Shown here: piece after piece, positions 4,068-26,638 of the stretch
Layout of the letters: each line of letters begins with the position of its first letter
How positions within the stretch are numbered: the first letter of the stretch is position 1
Assembly: GCA_938035945.1 (NCBI GenBank)
Contig: CALHOU010000002.1
Span: 1-64,000 of the forward strand
Direction of reading: 5' to 3'
DNA: 64,000 nt
Source of the DNA: an uncultured Granulosicoccaceae bacterium
GTDB taxonomy: Bacteria > Pseudomonadota > Gammaproteobacteria > Granulosicoccales > Granulosicoccaceae
Notes under the pieces: model-generated
Seen by the model: only the letters and a program-made list of their open reading frames with translations
What the model was told of the DNA's origin: nothing
Databases searched by the model: none
Translations under genes and position numbers: made by a program

Positions 4068-6404
4068 TTACCTCGGGCCAGAAAAGTTTCCAAGGTCAGA
4101 CCAATCAGCCGCATACACATCAGAACCATGGATGTAGTAAACCGAATCTCCAACGATAACTGAGCGATCATCGCCATAATAACCAAAGGCGGACGGATTT
4201 GGATTGGAAGCCGAATTCACCACCATCGCACCGCGACGTTCGATGCTGGCACCGTCGCCAACGTTTATATCAAACCCATGCAGGCCGGTAAAATTCCAGG
4301 GATACCAAAACGATGGATCACTAACTTGGCGTGGCTCAGACAAGCCTGCCACATCAATCCCAAACGCCACACGGGTCGGGTGAGTATCAGTTGCTGCTTG
4401 CACTGTAATGGCTCTATGGTTTCGCAAAGCAACGGCTTCAGTACCGCGCTCACCGATGACCAAGGACTGCACTTCAATCGGGTTGCTGGCATCAGCGACA
4501 TTAAACAAGGATAGTTTTATACCTTGTTGCCAAGCGCCATCACGATCGCCGCCACCGTTACCTGCAGGTACTGCGTCTTTACCAATACCCAATAGAAAAT
4601 CTTCACCAATCGGATGTAGATAGTCGCTATAGCCATCTATTTCCAATTCGCCGGCAAGCTTAGGGTCGGTCGGGTTTGAAAAATCGATAACATAAAGTGG
4701 ATCGGTTTGTCTGAAGGTGACCAAATACCCTTTATTACCTAGAAAACGCGATGCGTATAGCTGTTCACCAGGCTTGCCAATGTGCTCGGGGTTGTTCGCG
4801 TTTGGCAACTCGGCGGCCGTTTTGAGTTCACCGTCACCTGAAACATCCAACACAGTCACATTGATCGGGCTTACCGATTCATTTTGTGCTTCTGAAAAAG
4901 TGGCCACACGCAGGTAGTTGTCTTTTTCGCTCATGCGGAACGGTTTGCGATCAGGGTTCCAGCCAAGATGTCCAGACACAACACCCGAACCACTGTAGTT
5001 AAGTTCTGTGCCGTTAATCGTGAATTGGTGGATGTCTGTATCAACGCGCGGATCAATATAAGCGACCGGCGACGTTTGATCATCTAAATCAATTGCCGGG
5101 TAAGCACCATAATCCCAACGTGTTGTTGCTAGGTATACAGCATTTTTAGTTGCGTACAAGGTTTCAGTAGCACCAAGAAAACACTCACTGTCTTTTAGTT
5201 CAAAGCTGTTCAAATCAAACACGGAAAGCGTAACAATATCTGGCGTATAGTAGTAATCTTGGGCTTGCCCACGTGCCGCAACAAAACATTCACCCGGATT
5301 AATCAACGGTACAGGTGCGCGATCACTTTGTGTAACGGATGGCAACACCGTGCTCAAATCAAGCTCCTCTACAGCTGCTTGATACTGTTCCGGGGTAGCT
5401 AAATAGGGGTCGATGCCTGGGATGCTTGGATAGAATCGGCTTGCCACAAATAAGGTGTCGCCTATGCGGCGGCTGGAAATAATACTGCCATCAATCCTGA
5501 TCGCATCGACCATATTACTTTGCATAGGGTCGGTAACATCAAGCTTTGAAATCAAACTGGTGTTGTTAGTAAACGAGTAAGAGTCGTTCCACGTATCGTA
5601 AAAATTTCGGTAGCTGGTGCTCGTAATAATGATGTTACGTTTTTGGTCAGCCTTATAAAGGTACATGCCATCGGCTGCAGCACCCCCAAGATCGAGCGTT
5701 AGGTCAATGATTGACTGTGCATCTGGCGCTTCATTCTGTAATGCCAAAATGCGCAGTTTGGTTTTAAGATCGGGGAAGTTAGGAACGGCAATCAAACTAT
5801 CGGTTGACGGCGTTACCGGCAACAGGTCAATAGCGAATTCATCATTAGCAGGGTCGACTGGTTCTGCTTGGTCAACCACAGCCGGTTCTTGAACCAGATC
5901 AACCGGCAAGCTCACAATCGGTTCAGGGCCGTCGACTTCAACCGGGTAATAGTTGCCGTATTGGTTTTCTAGAATATATAAAAACTCACCATCAGATTTC
6001 ATGCGATCTTGTTCATCAACACCAATTTCCTGAACATTAGTCGTGGTGACATCGGCTGGTGCAGAGCCTGCTTGTTCATCACCGGCGGCTAAGTCCTGCG
6101 CGCTATCCGTGGTCGGTGCGGCGACTCCCAGTTCTAGAACCGGCGCAATTGAATCATCAGTACCAAAGCGGCCTGTATTGGCATTTTGTTTTATCAAACC
6201 ATCGCGCAAGGCGGTGAAAAAGGCATCGCTGTTCTCTAACTGCTGTAGTTCTCGTTGCTGCGCCTGAGGATTTGGGTCGACAGGGTTAATGTTGCCGCCG
6301 TCGCTTGTGCCTTCACCGGTTTGCACCGCATTCATATTGTTATCACTACAAGCACTGAGCATGACCAGCGAAATGGCGCTGGCAATCAGGGTTTTCTGAA
6401 TCAT
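4068..6404 (-). CDS. Secreted beta-propeller-domain lipoprotein
   Basis: A 778-residue protein with a lipoprotein signal: charged start, hydrophobic stretch and lipobox LSAC with Cys19. Next come a low-complexity Asn/Gly/Gln linker and an N-terminal module with the segment NVQEIGVDEQD, and then repeated blade-like units (LYVIDFSNPTDPKLAGEL, YLHPIGEDFLLGIG) of the secreted C-terminal beta-propeller family (Pfam Beta_propel type). An acidic Pro/Val/Asp-rich insertion lies near residues 155-200. It is likely on the periplasmic or outer face. Function is unknown; such proteins occur mostly as isolated genes. Its promoter carries a palindromic operator pair (6455-6536), so expression is probably conditional. 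Confidence 0.8.
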   Translation of the reverse strand: MIQKTLIASAISLVMLSACSDNNMNAVQTGEGTSDGGNINPVDPNPQAQQRELQQLENSDAFFTALRDGLIKQNANTGRFGTDDSIAPVLELGVAAPTTDSAQDLAAGDEQAGSAPADVTTTNVQEIGVDEQDRMKSDGEFLYILENQYGNYYPVEVDGPEPIVSLPVDLVQEPAVVDQAEPVDPANDEFAIDLLPVTPSTDSLIAVPNFPDLKTKLRILALQNEAPDAQSIIDLTLDLGGAAADGMYLYKADQKRNIIITSTSYRNFYDTWNDSYSFTNNTSLISKLDVTDPMQSNMVDAIRIDGSIISSRRIGDTLFVASRFYPSIPGIDPYLATPEQYQAAVEELDLSTVLPSVTQSDRAPVPLINPGECFVAARGQAQDYYYTPDIVTLSVFDLNSFELKDSECFLGATETLYATKNAVYLATTRWDYGAYPAIDLDDQTSPVAYIDPRVDTDIHQFTINGTELNYSGSGVVSGHLGWNPDRKPFRMSEKDNYLRVATFSEAQNESVSPINVTVLDVSGDGELKTAAELPNANNPEHIGKPGEQLYASRFLGNKGYLVTFRQTDPLYVIDFSNPTDPKLAGELEIDGYSDYLHPIGEDFLLGIGKDAVPAGNGGGDRDGAWQQGIKLSLFNVADASNPIEVQSLVIGERGTEAVALRNHRAITVQAATDTHPTRVAFGIDVAGLSEPRQVSDPSFWYPWNFTGLHGFDINVGDGASIERRGAMVVNSASNPNPSAFGYYGDDRSVIVGDSVYYIHGSDVYAADWSDLGNFSGPR

Positions 6405-6454
6405 GACTACACTCCTTTTATTACCGAGGTCGGCAATTCAACCAATATATTTAT

Positions 6455-6472
6455 TTGGGATATTTGTCCCAA
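6455..6472. promoter_or_regulatory. Palindromic operator 1 (TTGGGA-N6-TCCCAA)
   Basis: A perfect 18-base inverted repeat with a six-base centre. It begins at the end of the predicted -10 box of the lipoprotein promoter and extends toward the gene, covering the expected transcription start. That placement fits a repressor site. A near copy with one mismatch lies at 6519-6536. Confidence 0.6.
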
Positions 6473-6499
6473 CTATACTCTTTTATCGACAGGGTGCAA
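6472..6499 (-). promoter_or_regulatory. Sigma70-type promoter of the beta-propeller gene
   Basis: Reading on the minus strand, TTGCAC (6499-6494) and TATAGT (6477-6472) are 16 bases apart, a good housekeeping promoter. It lies about 70 bases before the lipoprotein start codon at 6404. The -10 box overlaps operator 1 by one base, and operator 2 lies upstream of the -35 box. Confidence 0.55.
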
Positions 6500-6518
6500 G
6501 TGCAAGCTGAATTTTTTA

Positions 6519-6536
6519 TTGGGAATATATTACCAA
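6519..6536. promoter_or_regulatory. Palindromic operator 2 (TTGGGA-N6-TACCAA)
   Basis: Second copy of the operator, with one mismatch in its right half. Its centre is 64 bases from the centre of operator 1, and it lies upstream of the -35 box. Two copies flanking one promoter suggest cooperative or looping control of the divergent pair (lipoprotein on minus, rhodanese on plus). Confidence 0.5.
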
Positions 6537-6641
6537 TCTATCGAATTTGTGCACTCCTGCACAGCAGCAATACCTCATTCCCCAGTTAGGCTATTATTCC
6601 CAGCCCAACAACAGATATCCCTACCCATCTAAGGAGCATTT

Positions 6642-7016
6642 ATGAAATCCGCAAAAGACTACCTGGAAAGCGCCAATGCAACCGTGCCTAAGCTCGACGC
6701 AGAAGAGGCCATTGCCAGAGTGAAGGCTGGAAAGTCAATCGTCGTTGACGTGCGTGACTCTGCAGCAATCGCCGAAAGCGGCACAATCGCAGGCGCACTG
6801 CGTATTCCACGTGGCTTTATTGAATTCGCAGCCGATGACGCCACACCGTTTCATAATGAAGCGATGAAAAAAGATGCGGATATCTTATTAGTGTGCGCGG
6901 CTGGCGGCCAGGCAGCACTGGCCGGCAAGACATTGCAAGACATGGGTTACACATCGGTTAGCAACATCGGTGGCATTGGTGATTGGAAAGACGCCGGTGG
7001 AGATATGGAAGACTAA
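6642..7016 (+). CDS. Single-domain rhodanese-like sulfurtransferase
   Basis: A 124-residue cytosolic single-domain rhodanese. The probable catalytic residue is Cys85, at the start of the active-site loop CAAGGQA, after the family pattern VVDVRDSAAIAESGTI (CH2A-like) near residues 34-49. The start is supported by a strong AAGGAG site at 6631-6636. It shares an operon with the next gene, whose ATG begins immediately after its TAA. The sulfur acceptor cannot be told from the sequence. Confidence 0.88.
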   Translation: MKSAKDYLESANATVPKLDAEEAIARVKAGKSIVVDVRDSAAIAESGTIAGALRIPRGFIEFAADDATPFHNEAMKKDADILLVCAAGGQAALAGKTLQDMGYTSVSNIGGIGDWKDAGGDMED

Positions 7017-7487
7017 ATGTCGGACAACCGCGTTTTATCGATTTACCACAAAGCACTGCGCTGGCCACTGGGTCGGCGTATGTTTTCTGTGTATGGTGCA
7101 CGACAAGCACCCTACTTCTCTACAATCTCCCCATTGGTCACTGTACTCGAACCCAATACCTGCGAAATTTTTATAAAGAAACGCAAGCGCGTGCAAAACC
7201 ACATTGGCACAATGCACGTTATCGCAATTGCCAACGGCTTGGAAATGGCGATGGGTTTCATGGCCGAAGCATCGATACCAAAGCACCTTCGCTGGATACC
7301 AAAAGGTATGGAATTAGCCTATCCAAACAAAGCCGATACTGACATTGTTTGTAGAGCAACTGTCCCGGCCGATGGTTGGACGCCAGGTGATTTGATCGTG
7401 ACAGTTGAGGCAACGGATACCGCGAACACGGTTGTGGTAGACGGTACTATAAAGCTTTGGATTAGCGAGAAGCCACCGCGCAGCTAA
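7017..7487 (+). CDS. Hot-dog-fold thioesterase-like protein (DUF4442 type)
   Basis: 156 residues with the hot-dog pattern of the PaaI/DUF4442 group: a pocket segment around IGTMHVIAIANGLEMAMG and a following beta-strand stretch. Such proteins hydrolyse acyl-CoA esters, but this branch has few characterised members, so the substrate is open. The ATG abuts the rhodanese stop codon, so the two are co-transcribed. It converges on chpA with about 100 bases between, where I see no convincing terminator. Confidence 0.7.
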   Translation: MSDNRVLSIYHKALRWPLGRRMFSVYGARQAPYFSTISPLVTVLEPNTCEIFIKKRKRVQNHIGTMHVIAIANGLEMAMGFMAEASIPKHLRWIPKGMELAYPNKADTDIVCRATVPADGWTPGDLIVTVEATDTANTVVVDGTIKLWISEKPPRS

Positions 7488-7586
7488 GCAAGCGTGCACG
7501 CAATTAGTCATTGGGTTCGGCCCAGGATTGTGTTTAAAGGCGCAGCACTATCCGACAAAGGATAAGACTGACCCCTAGCGCAATTT

Positions 7587-10500
7587 TTACAAGATACCCA
7601 CTTTTTCTAAAGCCATTTGCATTTGCTGTTGCGAATAAGGTTTAACAACATACTCCAATGCGCCAAGCTCTTTGGCCTGTTTGCGATCTTCATCGGTATC
7701 TCGGGTGCTGATCATGATGACTGGGGTATCGTGCTCGGGGTAAAGCACACGCAGGTGACGAAGAAAATCAAACCCGTTCATGCGTGGCATATCAATATCG
7801 ACCAATAGTAAATCTGGTAGGGCATCTGCAACTAGTTCAATCGCTTCAGCGCCATCTCGCGCCATGTTCGGTTCTATGTTCAAATTTTGCAGCATTTGTT
7901 CAGCCGCGATGCGCATCGTGATGGAGTCATCAACAATTAAGGCTGTGCGCGAAAGAATGGCTGTATTTGCAGCCCCCCAATTAGATTGCGGCAATACTTT
8001 TTCGGGGCTAAGCAGTCGATTGAAATCTGGAATGAGCACCACACGGCCATCGGCAAGAATAGAGCCACCCAAGTAACGCTTTAAGCCAGATAACTGTGCG
8101 CCCAAGGGTTGTGCGATAACTTCACGATAGCCAATCACTTTGTCAACCAGCAGCGCAATGTGCTTGCCTTGCACACCAATTAACACGACACGACCTGCAT
8201 TAGCCGCTGCCTCGTAGGCAATATCGCCATTGATAATGGCATCCAATGCACAGCAACCGTAGTCCACATTGTTGAATTGAATATCAGCTTGCGACAGATC
8301 ATGCTGTTCATCAACAACGGTGTGAATAAAGTTGACCGGTATCGCGTACAGACGCGACCGGTGCTCAACCAACACAACCTGATTAATGCGAATTTTTTGT
8401 GGCACTCGTAACGAGAATACGCTGCCGCCTGTTTCGGGTTGACCCAGGTGCAAGCTACCATCGAGTTCCTCGACGAGCGCTTTAACGGTCGACAATCCTA
8501 AGCCACGGCCACCAAGTTGGTCGGCATCGGTATGCGTTGTATAGCCGGGCTCACACAATTGCTCGAGAAGTTTATCGCTCGACACACCCGGTAAACGTTT
8601 GATTCCCGCACCATCATCGCTAACTTCGATAAGCAAGTCAGTGCCGTCGATTTTGGCGTCGACCGCAACCACACCACGTGCCGACTTACCCGATGCACTG
8701 CGCTCGGCTTCGGCTTCTATACCGTGTACCACCGCGTTGCGAATTAAATGTTCCAACGGAGTCATCAATTTTCTAAACGTTGATTTATCCAGATTGAGCT
8801 CACAGCCCGTTAGCACAAAATCAACCGCTTTATTAGTCTCTTTCGCTGCATCGTTAAGCGTATGTTGCAAACGAATCTGACTTTCAGAGAAGCTAACCAT
8901 TTGTGCGCGAATAAGCGTTTGGTGCAAGGATGCGTCGGCGCGAGAACCTTGTGTGTGTTCAGCTTCCGCATCGAGTAACGCATCCGCCAACATGCGTTGC
9001 GCACTTTCCAGATCTTTAAGCATTTCCGCCACAGCCGGCGAATTCAAATCGGTGTGGTCGTGTGGCAGGCGCTGTAAACGCAAAGAAGTGGTTTCGATAT
9101 CTCGACAGGCATCACGTAGTCGTAGCATGGACTCACCCAGCTTAGCCTGGCTCACGGTGGCCCGCGTTGCCAGCGACAACATATTCTCAAAAGTGGCTTC
9201 GGTTAAGCCCATTGGTTCTGCACGTGCAGGCGCTGGCACTGTTGGTTCTGATGGCTCAGTCACTTCGACCAACATTAAGGTCTGCAACTCGCCTAAGCCT
9301 AGCTGTACAACTGAATCGAGCACAGCACCGTCGGCTAAACGCATTTCATCTTCAAGTTCATGTGCTCGATCGGCCAGTGCGCTTTGACCTGCCATGCGCG
9401 CGCTGCCCTTAATGGTATGCAAACAACTCAGTATGCGATCAATCGCATCAGTTCGCTCAGCATCATCACCCAGTCTTTCCGCATCTAACCGAAGCGCTTC
9501 GAGTAATTCCCGCGCTTCTTCCTGAAACACGTTTTCGATGCTGCTGGCGTCATTGCTTAATTGCAAACCCGCTTTACGCTCAGGCACCCAAGGTTCACTG
9601 CGCGCCACAAACTCATTGAGCCGGGCCATGAGTGCATCATTATCTTCACTCAATGGTGTATCGGTTTCCATAGCCTCTAACCGCGCTTGCAGCACATCAA
9701 GCAATTCACCAATGTATTCGGTTTCAGAGCGATCGAACATTTCACCGCTGCGTTGTTTTAACAGTGCGGCTTTCTGCAGTGGTTGCGCAATCGCAATGAT
9801 ATTTTGCGCATCAACCGTTTGCGCACTGCCAGTTAGCGTATGCAGTGCCCGCAACATGTCACGATTGGGTAGTGCTTGCGCCGGTGCGATATCGGGGATA
9901 TCAACGCCGGCTTTTTGAGTTGATAAATTAAGCGCAGCACGTTGAGCATCGTTTTCCCAGTTATTCGAAGCTAAGGCATCAGCAACTGACTTACGCAAAA
10001 TGAGCATGTGCTGATCACATTCCCGGAAAAACACCTGCTCCAAGGTGTTGTCTAAAGTCATGACCGGCGAATCATCATCGATGGTGGCATCGAGCAATTC
10101 TTCGCGCGGCACCTGCATAGAGCTATCAAGCAAATGCGTGCTTTCAAATGCAATGGTTTTCTCCATTGCGGTGGTGGCTTGCAAGCTAACGGTTTCGTCT
10201 GTCAGCGTTCCATCCAGAAAGGTCAAATCTTCAGATAATGTGTTCTGCGCCAAAATGTTTTGCACATCCATTGCAAGTGTCAGATCCTCACCTGCTGCAT
10301 CGGTCAACCGGTCCAGCAAGGCTTGTAGTCCGTACACTCTATCGCTCGTGCTGTGCAATTGATTGATCAGCTGTGGCAATACGGCCACCGACTCATCGAG
10401 CAGCGTTTGTGTGTTCGCAGAATCGCTGCCAGACTCAAGCATACGTACATTCGCAAGTGAGAGCGCTTCGAGTTCGCGCGATTCGAATTTTATCGCTTCA

Positions 10501-21568: not shown

Positions 21569-21769
21569 CGACAACTAGTCGCAAAACGCTCCCTAACGAG
21601 CTTCCAGCCGCTTTGCTGCCCATAGCCTTTGGGCAAATCCATTTCTCGATAATCAGCATCAAATTGCTTATACTGTGAAAAATCAGACGAGCACTTGTGC
21701 CCCATCCGGAATTAGCAGATGGTTGGATGACGAAGTTTGCATGTTGAATAGAATAAGTTTGAATAAATT

Positions 21770-22846
21770 ATGAATAATGATGAGATAACGACGCGTTCGC
21801 CCGCACTCATAATGCGGATTTTTGGCTGGACGATGTTAGCCACTCTATTAACCTATCTCATCAATAACTATCTGGTTGTAGAGAAAGGCTATCCCGGCGT
21901 TATGTCGCTATTCAATAGCGAGATAAGCACAAACGGTTTACTTCAAGGCGCACTTTATCTTGCCGGTTTTTTATTCGCCATCATTTACGTTATGGGCTCG
22001 CGCAGCAAACCCCTGCGCACCGACGCCGCACTAATCACGCGTTTCAACACCTATTTAATTCGCGGTTGTTTCTGGGCTGTATTATTTGTTGGCCTTGCCG
22101 ACATGGCGATATCTTTTCTGCGCGTTGAAGGTTTATTGGGCGATGTGGTAAGTGCCGAGATGGTCAAACAACTGGGGCGTTCGAGTTATCGCGGCTTATA
22201 CATTCACTATCCCCTTATTGCCTTCGGCTTTGTACTTGCACTGTTTACCCGTACCTTAGGCTTTCACTGGCTAGCACTACTGATTGTTATAGCCGAGCTT
22301 ACGATTGTTATCACGCGATTTGTTTTTTCTTATGAACAGGCATTCATGGGTGATCTTGTACGTTTTTGGTATGCGGCTTTATTTTTATTCGCCAGTGCTT
22401 ACACCCTGTTAGAAGAAGGCCATGTTCGCGTGGATGTTTTTTATGCCGGTCTATCGAAAAGGGCAAAGGGTTCGGTTAATGCCTTTGGCGCTATCTTCCT
22501 GGGTATGAGCTTGTGTTGGACCATTATCATTTTAGGTTTTAAAGGCAAAGCATCCGTTATTTACGGTCCTCTATCTAACTTCGAAGTGTCGCAATCCGGG
22601 TTTGGCATGTACACCAAATACCTGATGGCAGGCTTTTTGGCGGTGTTTGCCGTCACCATGTTGATTCAATTTGTCAGTCAAATGTTCGATGCTCAGGCTG
22701 ATCGGCGAGGTGACCCCGGTGGCCGCGTTGACCCCATGAGCGAAGAAATGGACATGGGCGAAAATAAAGCACCCGACCCCATCATCGAAGAGCATGCCCA
22801 AGCCGTGAACGACGATCACGTAAACGGCCCAGCCCCCTCCCACTAG
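21770..22846 (+). CDS. TRAP transporter small permease (long DctQ form)
   Basis: 358 residues, about twice the usual DctQ length. About eight hydrophobic helices are visible (near 12-36, 55-75, 95-117, 145-160, 163-185, 195-213, 236-256, 283-305). The C-terminal half carries the DctQ signature EEGHVRVDVFY (215-225); the N-terminal half adds about four extra helices. A polar acidic tail of about 45 residues follows. It pairs with the large permease 18 bases downstream. No periplasmic binding-protein gene (dctP) is nearby, so the substrate cannot be read from context. Confidence 0.85.
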   Translation: MNNDEITTRSPALIMRIFGWTMLATLLTYLINNYLVVEKGYPGVMSLFNSEISTNGLLQGALYLAGFLFAIIYVMGSRSKPLRTDAALITRFNTYLIRGCFWAVLFVGLADMAISFLRVEGLLGDVVSAEMVKQLGRSSYRGLYIHYPLIAFGFVLALFTRTLGFHWLALLIVIAELTIVITRFVFSYEQAFMGDLVRFWYAALFLFASAYTLLEEGHVRVDVFYAGLSKRAKGSVNAFGAIFLGMSLCWTIIILGFKGKASVIYGPLSNFEVSQSGFGMYTKYLMAGFLAVFAVTMLIQFVSQMFDAQADRRGDPGGRVDPMSEEMDMGENKAPDPIIEEHAQAVNDDHVNGPAPSH

Positions 22847-22864
22847 CAGCACGGATTCAAACAC

Positions 22865-25519
22865 ATGGAACTGGTCTTCCTAGCATTACTGTTAATTCTT
22901 CTGGCTTTTGCGCTCGGCTCTGGTTACCCAGTGGCGTTTGCGCTACCAGGCGCTGCCATCATCAGCATATCGCTGGCTGCTGTGTGCGGGTACTTTTTTG
23001 GCGGCAGCGTTGACGCCTATTTTGCTCACGGGGGACCCAGCCAATGGCTTAGCGCGGGGGTAACAAACTTGCGCGGTATTTACTGGGAAGTTGAACGCGA
23101 CACGCTTATCGCCATTCCCTTGTTTATCTTTATGGGCATCATGCTGCAACGCTCCAAGATTGCAGAAGACCTACTCATCACCATGTCGCAGTTATTCGGC
23201 CCAGTGCCAGGTGGCTTAGGCATCTCGGTCGTATTCGTTGGTGCCTTGTTAGCCGCAACCACGGGTATCGTGGGTGCAACTGTTGTGGCGATGGGCTTAA
23301 TATCGTTACCGGTGATGTTGCGCAATGGGTATTCACAATCCTTAGCCACCGGCACCATCGCAGCATCGGGTACGCTAGGTCAGATCATCCCGCCGTCGAT
23401 TGTATTAATCATTCTGGCCGACCAACTTGCCAGTGCAACTGACCAGGCAGGCACGGCACGTAAAGCGCTGCACAAAGCCGCCACCGGTGAAATTAGCATG
23501 CCGTCGGAGTTTGCCGTCACATCCACCAGTGCAGGTGAAATGTTTCTAGGCGCTATGTTGCCAGGCCTTGTATTGGTTGGTTTGTACATGTTGTACATAT
23601 TGCTTTACGCAATGTTCCGCCCATCCAAAGCACCAGCGGTTCGGTTTGAAGGTGGGTATAACAAACACTTCTTACTGAAAGTTGTTGGCACGCTGGTACC
23701 GCCACTGACCTTAATTTTTCTGGTTCTCGGCTCCATCATCACAGGTATCGCAACCGTAAACCAAGCCGGTGCGATCGGTGCAGCTGGTGCGTTGTTGATG
23801 GCAAGTTACCGCCTGAAAGAAGGCCCACGGCGTTACTGGCCAGCCATACTGGCCGTGATTGGGTTGATCGGATTAGCGATTGCACTTGCCCTATTTGATA
23901 GCAATGTCAAAAACATAAAAACCGATCGTGACATGATCGGCATCATCTTCTCTATCGGTGTTGTGAGCCTATTGCTGATTGCACTGCTCTGGAGTGGCGT
24001 GCGCGTGAATCGCGAAAACAATACGCTGCATGAAGTGATGATCGAAACCGCAAAAGCCACGTCATTGGTATTCATCATCCTGCTTGGCGCTGCCATGTTA
24101 ACCGCAGCTTTCCGTGCGTTCGGTGGTGAAGAATTGGTCCGCGATTACCTTAACGCGCTGCCCGGTGGCTTTTGGACCAAGTTCATTATTGTTATGGCGG
24201 TTATTTTTATCCTTGGCTTTTTTCTAGATTTCATAGAGATCGCTGTTGTTGTTGTACCTATCGTTGCACCTATATTGCTCGCCGACCCATCGGCAAACAT
24301 CACCGCCGTTTGGCTTGGCGTTATGATCGGCTTGAACATTCAAACATCGTTCTTAACACCGCCTTTTGGTTTTGCGCTGTTTTATCTTCGCGGCGTGGCG
24401 CCGGCGATTGTTAAAACCGTCAATATGTATAAAGGTGTAATAGCGTTTATTTGTTTACAGCTGATCGCGCTTGGTATTGTCGGTTACTTCCCACCATTGG
24501 TTAACTATCTGCCTAACCGGATGTCCTTACTATCAGAAACCGCACCACCACCGCGTAATCCGAAATTACAATACTGCATTGAGGAATACACGCTTGAGCA
24601 ATTTTCCGATACCAACAGCGGATTTGATGATGCGCTGGCAAAGGCGCGCGGCCTTGATGTTTCATTGTTACCAAAGAAAATGGCTAAAGCGCTGACAGCT
24701 AGCTTTGATAGTGCCGAAGATGCCAAGACATTATTGAGCGACGCTAAAGCCGCCGAACTAGCAGCACAAGCCAATGCCGACAACTACCGCGTGTACCACA
24801 CCCAAGTGCGTGCACTGGAATTAAAAATTCGCGAGCTCGAAGCTACCGCCATAGAGTTGGATACGGCGCGCGAGAGAATCAGCGGTGAAAATGCGGAAAA
24901 ACGCATCAGTGCTATTGACGAACGGCTGGCGAATATCGAGACAGCCAAGAACGATCTTCTGGCTCAATTTCCAGCTGAGTGGGAAGCCGAAAACGAAAAA
25001 CATGTTGGCCTGCAAGATACCGAGAATAAAGCGCGCTTGGCCTACCGAAAAGCGGCCGACAACGGCTATAAAAACGTACTCGAAATTTCTGCCGCCCTAG
25101 GTGCAACCTCAGCATTACGCAAGCTCGAATCCACGCTGCCAGAAATGCGCGCACGCATTGAAAACGAAGAACCTGCAGACTTAATAGATCCAATCAAAGC
25201 ACTGGCTGATCAATTTGGTGATATTGAAGGCGCTTCCAAGATAAAAAGTGCTGTATCTAAAGCACGATCTAGCTTAAAGAAGAAAAAGCCAAACCAAGAT
25301 GCAGCACTTAAATCTATCGACAAAGCGATGAAAATCTACGCCGAAGAGATGCAATGGCGCAGCGAAGCAGAAGTCGCGCTTGGGCCTCAGTTAAAAGAGT
25401 TTGAACAGGCCATGAGCGGAACCATCGGCATACGCCAACAAGAACGCTTGACACGCGAGCAGTCTTTATTTGTTGCAGCCTGTAACTCGCACCACAGAGA
25501 TTTATCTTTGAATTTTTAG
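22865..25519 (+). CDS. TRAP large permease (DctM) with coiled-coil C-terminal extension
   Basis: 884 residues. Residues 1 to about 550 are a DctM-type multi-helix permease with the conserved ASGTLGQIIPPSIVLIIL segment and a duplicated second half (LNIQTSFLTPPFGFALFYLRG). Like the mannitol/chloroaromatic subgroup it has long inter-helix insertions. From about 552 to 884 the chain is soluble, rich in Ala, Glu, Lys and Leu, with heptad-like coiled coil (about 645-705 and 780-850). DctM proteins normally end after the last helix, so this tail is unusual. It is followed by the methyltransferase 21 bases downstream, probably in one operon. Confidence 0.88.
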   Translation: MELVFLALLLILLAFALGSGYPVAFALPGAAIISISLAAVCGYFFGGSVDAYFAHGGPSQWLSAGVTNLRGIYWEVERDTLIAIPLFIFMGIMLQRSKIAEDLLITMSQLFGPVPGGLGISVVFVGALLAATTGIVGATVVAMGLISLPVMLRNGYSQSLATGTIAASGTLGQIIPPSIVLIILADQLASATDQAGTARKALHKAATGEISMPSEFAVTSTSAGEMFLGAMLPGLVLVGLYMLYILLYAMFRPSKAPAVRFEGGYNKHFLLKVVGTLVPPLTLIFLVLGSIITGIATVNQAGAIGAAGALLMASYRLKEGPRRYWPAILAVIGLIGLAIALALFDSNVKNIKTDRDMIGIIFSIGVVSLLLIALLWSGVRVNRENNTLHEVMIETAKATSLVFIILLGAAMLTAAFRAFGGEELVRDYLNALPGGFWTKFIIVMAVIFILGFFLDFIEIAVVVVPIVAPILLADPSANITAVWLGVMIGLNIQTSFLTPPFGFALFYLRGVAPAIVKTVNMYKGVIAFICLQLIALGIVGYFPPLVNYLPNRMSLLSETAPPPRNPKLQYCIEEYTLEQFSDTNSGFDDALAKARGLDVSLLPKKMAKALTASFDSAEDAKTLLSDAKAAELAAQANADNYRVYHTQVRALELKIRELEATAIELDTARERISGENAEKRISAIDERLANIETAKNDLLAQFPAEWEAENEKHVGLQDTENKARLAYRKAADNGYKNVLEISAALGATSALRKLESTLPEMRARIENEEPADLIDPIKALADQFGDIEGASKIKSAVSKARSSLKKKKPNQDAALKSIDKAMKIYAEEMQWRSEAEVALGPQLKEFEQAMSGTIGIRQQERLTREQSLFVAACNSHHRDLSLNF

Positions 25520-25540
25520 TTGCACGCATAAGCGATCCGT

Positions 25541-26638
25541 ATGAGTAAACCAACAGCACATGCCGATAACATCACGATGTCTGGTGATGGACTTTATTCG
25601 CTTGCCACCATTGGAGCGAAAGATGTCATCGATAAAGCCACACCACGGGTCATTGCCGCGATAAACAGCATGCCTGATCACCAAGGCACTTGGCACTTTA
25701 GTGACATGGGCTGCGCTGACGGCGGTACCTCTTTAGATTTGTGGCGCTCTGTGGTTAAGCACATTCGCGCGAACGAAGCGTCAGACATACAAATCGTCTA
25801 CGCAGACCAGGCCCGTAATGATTTCAATGCGCTGGTAAAGATTCTGCATGGGCTGACCCAGTTCGATTCCTATCTTGATGAGCACAGCAATGTGTTCGCA
25901 CTTGAATCAGGGGCTTCTTTTTATACACCGATCTTGCCGTCCAATTCCTTAAACTTGGGGTTCTCCGCAACTGCCATGCATTGGCTCAGCCAAAAGCCTT
26001 GTGATATCAAGGGCCATGTGCACATGGTTGGCGCGAACGGAGAGGATAGACGCGCATTTGCAGCGCAAGCGGCTAAAGACTGGGAAACCATCCTGTTGCA
26101 GCGCGCTCGCGAGATGAAATCGGGAGCAAAGCTTGTGTTAATCAATTTTTGTATTGATGAAAATGGCAACTACCTGGGTAACACCGGCGGCGTGAACATG
26201 TTCGATAACTTCAACAATAACTGGCAAGACTTTGTTGATCAAAATACAATTACTGCCGGTGAGTACGAGGCCATGACCTTACCTCAGTACTACAACACCG
26301 CCGAAGAATTTTCACAGCCCTTGCTGGATACAAACTCAGCTGTACACAAAGCTGGGTTACGTTTGGTTGACATTGAAACAGCGGTTGTACCCTGCCCGTT
26401 TGCCGAGGATTTTAAAGTACATGGCAATGCGCAGCAATTTGCAAAAGCCTATATTCCAACCATCCGCTCCTGGAATGAAAGTACGTTCATCGGCGCACTA
26501 TCCGCTGATCGGCCAACACAAGAGCGTGAAGATATTATCGAAGCTTACTATGCCAGCTATGAATCCCAAGTGGCGCAAAATCCACAAGACCATGGAATGG
26601 GATACGTACACGCTTATATGACCATCGAAAAGCTGTGA
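25541..26638 (+). CDS. SABATH-type carboxyl methyltransferase
   Basis: 365 residues resembling the plant SABATH family (Pfam Methyltransf_7), which methylates small carboxylic acids or purine nitrogens with S-adenosylmethionine. Visible motifs: the N-terminal MSGDGLYSLAT, the SAM loop DMGCADGGTSLDLW (55-68), YADQARNDFNALVKIL (87-102) and SFYTPILPSNSLNLGF with AMHWLSQKP (126-153). The substrate is unknown. Its position 21 bases after the TRAP permeases suggests a transported carboxylate. It converges on the CoA-transferase gene with 12 bases between. Confidence 0.85.
   Translation: MSKPTAHADNITMSGDGLYSLATIGAKDVIDKATPRVIAAINSMPDHQGTWHFSDMGCADGGTSLDLWRSVVKHIRANEASDIQIVYADQARNDFNALVKILHGLTQFDSYLDEHSNVFALESGASFYTPILPSNSLNLGFSATAMHWLSQKPCDIKGHVHMVGANGEDRRAFAAQAAKDWETILLQRAREMKSGAKLVLINFCIDENGNYLGNTGGVNMFDNFNNNWQDFVDQNTITAGEYEAMTLPQYYNTAEEFSQPLLDTNSAVHKAGLRLVDIETAVVPCPFAEDFKVHGNAQQFAKAYIPTIRSWNESTFIGALSADRPTQEREDIIEAYYASYESQVAQNPQDHGMGYVHAYMTIEKL

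Follow-up and report, generated by a model that had tools for sequence, protein, structure and literature searches.

A TRAP transporter with an extended DctM subunit beside a SABATH methyltransferase gene: a candidate 2-oxo acid uptake-and-methylation module

The window analysed here is a stretch of 64,000 nucleotides from the genome of an uncultured marine Granulosicoccaceae bacterium. On its forward strand, the genes for the two membrane subunits of a TRAP transporter are followed by a gene for a SABATH-family methyltransferase, with 18 nt between dctQ and dctM and 21 nt between dctM and the SABATH gene. An earlier note on this DNA had read three same-strand genes with the methyltransferase starting 21 nt past dctM, and the open reading frames lie exactly as it claimed. 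The features of the locus are as follows:

21569-21769, plus strand: intergenic gap between pyrC and dctQ, without dctP; the site of a TakP-like dctP in the relative G004.
21770-22846, plus strand: dctQ, TRAP small permease subunit, 358 aa (Pfam DctQ, 1e-9; long-match orthologues in 19 relatives).
22865-25519, plus strand: dctM, TRAP large permease subunit, 884 aa (Pfam DctM, 5.8e-62).
22865-24523, plus strand: dctM core, about residues 1-553 (Pfam DctM; alignment of 21 sequences).
24524-25519, plus strand: C-terminal extension of DctM, about 331 aa (alignment, AlphaFold2).
25541-26638, plus strand: gene for a SABATH-family SAM-dependent methyltransferase, 365 aa (Pfam PF03492; profile matches).

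On the 5' side of dctQ lies a pyrimidine block, the last gene of which is pyrC (a name given from the sequence; Pfam reports an amidohydrolase), and on the 3' side of the SABATH gene lies a convergent CoA-transferase III gene. Terminator-like sites outnumber those in shuffled sequences, but none falls within the dctQ-dctM or dctM-SABATH gaps; a promoter scan of the locus returned nothing exceeding shuffles. The TRAP and SABATH genes are probably co-transcribed.

Both TRAP subunits pass their Pfam cut-offs. The DctQ match covers only residues 178-306 of the 358, leaving about 150 N-terminal residues outside it, and the DctM core is followed by an extension that is kept across 17 diverse relatives at 27-79% identity in the alignment; the earlier description of these permeases as modified is thus borne out in both subunits. 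Compared with the TakPQM-type TRAP transporter, known from Rhodobacter sphaeroides TakP, the window DctQ has an additional N-terminal part, DctM carries a C-terminal helical extension of about 330 residues, a methyltransferase gene is attached, and the locus lacks dctP. The AlphaFold2 model of the DctM extension is all-helical with a mean pLDDT of 89; the model of full-length DctM reaches a pLDDT of 60, which is too low for use. A Foldseek search of the extension model against the PDB gave no convincing match (best E 0.09), and VIA-align scores stayed at the background expected for helical models. Since both methods returned only helical-bundle background matches, a fold assignment for the extension was rejected. 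The helical domain is divergent except for an invariant pair of cysteines, C571 and C873 in DctM numbering, which likely form a disulfide if the extension is periplasmic.

The methyltransferase matches the SABATH profile (PF03492, Methyltransf_7) with 126.3 bits against a cut-off of 29.8 (1.9e-36) over profile positions 14-332 of 335, and profile searches matched 11 distinct solved SABATH sequences. The best of these is the fatty acid O-methyltransferase 5f2k (8e-26), which we take to be a mycobacterial enzyme; it scores ahead of every plant enzyme and is followed by the plant LAMT and SAMT, so the label "plant-type" in the earlier note is misleading. A recent transfer from plant to bacterium is also unsupported, the nearest solved enzyme being non-plant and the clade broad in bacteria. 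Set beside the known SABATH enzymes (5f2k and the plant LAMT, SAMT, IAMT and caffeine synthases), the protein shows a nearly whole-length family match, a conserved SAM-site region and a Trp or Tyr at the carboxylate site, whereas the bacterial clade differs from them in the Ala or Pro that replaces SAMT Gln25, in a clade-specific motif at about residues 213-225, and in its link to a transporter. Across 81 SABATH proteins, the position of SAMT W151 (Trp148) holds Trp in 67 and Tyr in 14, and His147 at the acceptor site is invariant. The position of SAMT Gln25 holds Ala in 79 of the 81, Pro in two and Gln in none; this Gln is presumably the carboxylate-contacting residue of the carboxyl-methylating plant enzymes and not a family-wide feature. 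Members of the clade in Acidimicrobiales and Alphaproteobacteria (L191, L188, L192, L179, L181) stand without TRAP genes and have a conserved upstream gene resembling 2-oxoglutarate/Fe(II) oxygenases, which is possibly a second context for this SABATH clade.

A genome-wide scan of GTDB for SABATH relatives yielded at least 341 loci, the best 80 of which were retained. Among these 80 named loci, 29 have the extended TRAP beside the SABATH gene, and the two share a strand in every case; the 29 come from Granulosicoccaceae and other Gammaproteobacteria as well as from SAR324. Two gene orders are found in this set. The order dctPQM-SABATH accounts for 17 of the 29, with about 21-128 nt between dctM and the SABATH gene, and occurs in Granulosicoccaceae and their kin, in SAR324 and in one other gammaproteobacterium. 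The order SABATH-dctPQM accounts for the other 12, in other Gammaproteobacteria, among them the Olavius algarvensis Gamma 3 endosymbiont, and most of these loci have 1-2.6 kb with other genes in between. When the neighbours in the same best 80 of at least 341 loci were clustered, DctM was found at 34 loci, DctQ at 32 and DctP at 32, and the next commonest neighbour at 15. Within Granulosicoccaceae, the TRAP genes adjoin the SABATH gene in 10 of the 19 SABATH-bearing genomes (10 of the 17 that hold both); the 19 include G065, where the SABATH gene is a fragment at a contig end. Transhydrogenase-like genes (PntA/PntB-like, by eye) lie near TRAP-SABATH at six loci (L173, L154, L161, L180, L086, L145); their occurrence in SAR324 and one Granulosicoccaceae genus suggests a shared or transferred block.

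The two components also co-occur without regard to linkage. Among 369 evenly sampled gammaproteobacterial genomes, the extended TRAP was found in 12 and the SABATH type in four, and all four SABATH genomes hold the extended TRAP (hypergeometric p 6.5e-7; 1.5e-5 outside Granulosicoccaceae), in two of them on a different contig. Among 48 Granulosicoccaceae genomes, 19 have the SABATH gene and 29 the DctM extension; 17 have both, two SABATH alone and 12 TRAP alone, so that 17 of the 19 SABATH genomes also carry the TRAP (Fisher p 8e-4, without a correction for kinship). Unlinked, short-contig or distant SABATH loci are present in 44 genomes, and 20 of them, including 12 Gammaproteobacteria, hold an extended TRAP somewhere. 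SABATH is present without the extended TRAP in G021 (94% completeness), in Acidimicrobiales and in most Alphaproteobacteria. The association is one-sided: TRAP is often found without SABATH, and SABATH is also found without TRAP. In Gammaproteobacteria, SABATH usually comes with TRAP and not the reverse, as would be expected if the enzyme acts on the compound that the TRAP imports. The earlier note had named co-conservation in other genomes as a test beforehand, and the recurrence in Granulosicoccaceae, SAR324 and other Gammaproteobacteria, together with a co-occurrence far above chance even when unlinked, agrees with what it expected.

A TRAP system requires a periplasmic binding protein. In most relatives, a TakP-like dctP lies immediately 5' of dctQ, and it precedes dctQ wherever the upstream side has been assembled, except in three Granulosicoccus-related genomes (the window genome and its two closest relatives, G022 and G014), in which dctQM adjoins pyrC and dctP is absent from that place; the SABATH gene is still attached to dctQM in two of these three. 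Since dctP is situated between pyrC and dctQ in G004, the simplest reading is that it was lost or relocated in the lineage of the window. In both G014 and G022, an orphan dctP about 76% identical to that of G004 lies on another contig:

L221:3420-4610 and L222:1739-2839: positions of these two orphan dctP genes, apart from dctQM.

A cognate dctP was not found in the window's own genome, the assembly of which is 86% complete; the closest candidate is 33% identical.

The binding proteins of the relatives point to the ligand. Their best solved match is TakP (2hzk/2hzl; 4.5e-69 for 2hzk), followed by other ketoacid binders. TakP binds pyruvate together with a cation via Tyr100, Gln156, Arg177, Glu214, Trp215 and Glu240 (PMC1839085). 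In 41 aligned DctP sequences, the linked or orthologous proteins of relatives and not the window's own, Y100, Q156, E214, W215 and E240 are kept in all 41 and R177 in 40, the sole exception being one Arg-to-His change. The linked systems thus use a binding protein of the TakP class, in which the ligands of the 2-oxo acid and the cation are conserved, and a 2-oxo acid is the best-supported ligand class. Uptake of a small 2-oxo acid is a well-supported prediction, which sustains the organic-acid uptake proposed in the earlier note and narrows it to 2-oxo acids. In Alphaproteobacteria, the divergent dctP products of L199 and L205 have a matched pair of exchanges among the cation ligands: E stands in place of TakP Q156, and Q in place of E240.

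We propose, at slightly less than an even chance, that these genes specify the membrane subunits of a secondary uptake system for small 2-oxo (alpha-keto) monocarboxylic acids together with a cytoplasmic SABATH enzyme that methylates the imported acid or its direct product. In this process, a TakP-like periplasmic protein, either encoded elsewhere or missing from the incomplete assembly, would bind the 2-oxo acid and a cation; DctQM would carry the acid inward using an ion gradient; and the SABATH enzyme would use SAM to methylate it, most probably on the carboxylate, giving a neutral ester. The imported acid would then be the methyl acceptor and the carboxylate the methylated position, and the benefit to the cell may be trapping, detoxification or signal release. 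Formation of a methyl ester from the imported acid is plausible. Several points count against the proposal. SABATH is dispensable to the TRAP, with 12 genomes of the family having TRAP alone, and it is found without TRAP as well; the window genome, at 86% completeness, has no identified cognate dctP; SAMT Q25 is replaced by Ala or Pro; and no esterase or other methyl-ester consumer is conserved nearby, as judged by eye and by neighbour clusters in the best 80 of at least 341 loci. In addition, the usual acceptors of SABATH enzymes are aromatic, terpenoid or fatty acids and not acids of pyruvate size.

It is quite possible that the pairing is functional but indirect, the SABATH enzyme methylating another compound (aromatic, terpenoid or fatty acid) from the same pathway or niche and the importer merely feeding that pathway. 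The closest solved enzyme, a fatty acid O-methyltransferase, is consistent with this, as is the fact that SABATH genes without TRAP adjoin other genes, such as the oxygenase-like gene of Acidimicrobiales and Alphaproteobacteria. On the other hand, SABATH has been paired again with TRAP systems of other kinds. At L186, it follows a short TakP-class TRAP of different architecture, the binding protein of which keeps all six TakP residues; at L199, it stands opposite a divergent TRAP with dctP and permease genes (5374-8581); and at L205, it stands opposite at least a related, divergent dctP (971-2050). This re-pairing points to the transported compound.

Two further explanations appear improbable to us. 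The block may have been passed on as a unit, by descent or by transfer, with no function shared between its genes, and shared descent could indeed explain much of the linkage within Granulosicoccaceae, many of which have the genes unlinked or lack one partner. The correlation of SABATH and DctM distances at 23 linked loci (Mantel r 0.77, p 1e-4) counts in favour of the proposed module, but it reflects both shared descent and co-transfer and would be expected from descent only as well. Against descent only, opposite gene orders with a constant same strand are found in SAR324 and several gammaproteobacterial groups, and TRAP and SABATH co-occur even when unlinked. In the tree of the 81 SABATH proteins, the label "linked" changes 16 times, a count inflated by contig ends, and linkage has thus been repeatedly gained or lost. 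It is similarly improbable that methylation takes place off the carboxylate, for example at C-3 or the enol oxygen of a 2-oxo acid, or at a nitrogen. The uniform replacement of the plant carboxylate-contacting Gln would fit such a reaction, and some SABATH enzymes are N-methyltransferases (PMC9822479); against it, the site still has Trp or Tyr in the position of the plant Trp, His147 is invariant, and SABATH enzymes most commonly catalyse O-methylation (PMC9822479). Chance linkage is ruled out by the recurrence in distant groups and the two gene orders.

In a literature search, from which most subscription journals were outside the coverage, no paper named SABATH together with TRAP transporters and no described system had such a form. 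The pairing of TRAP and SABATH in distant marine lineages points to an undescribed uptake-and-methylation module. A more far-reaching version, which we consider unlikely, is that of a dedicated module in which a 2-oxo acid enters through an architecturally new TRAP and is methylated by a bacterial SABATH clade whose binding mode differs from that of the plant carboxyl methyltransferases, giving a small methylated product for marine microbial interactions. Plants use small methyl esters of organic acids as signals and scents. A bacterial gene set that joins organic-acid uptake to a SABATH enzyme and is conserved across SAR324, Granulosicoccaceae and marine symbionts would point to a source of such compounds in the sea that can be tested, and for this uncharacterised bacterial SABATH clade, the substrate search would narrow to 2-oxo acids. 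It would also extend the known TRAP types by an architecture whose helical domain is unexplained.
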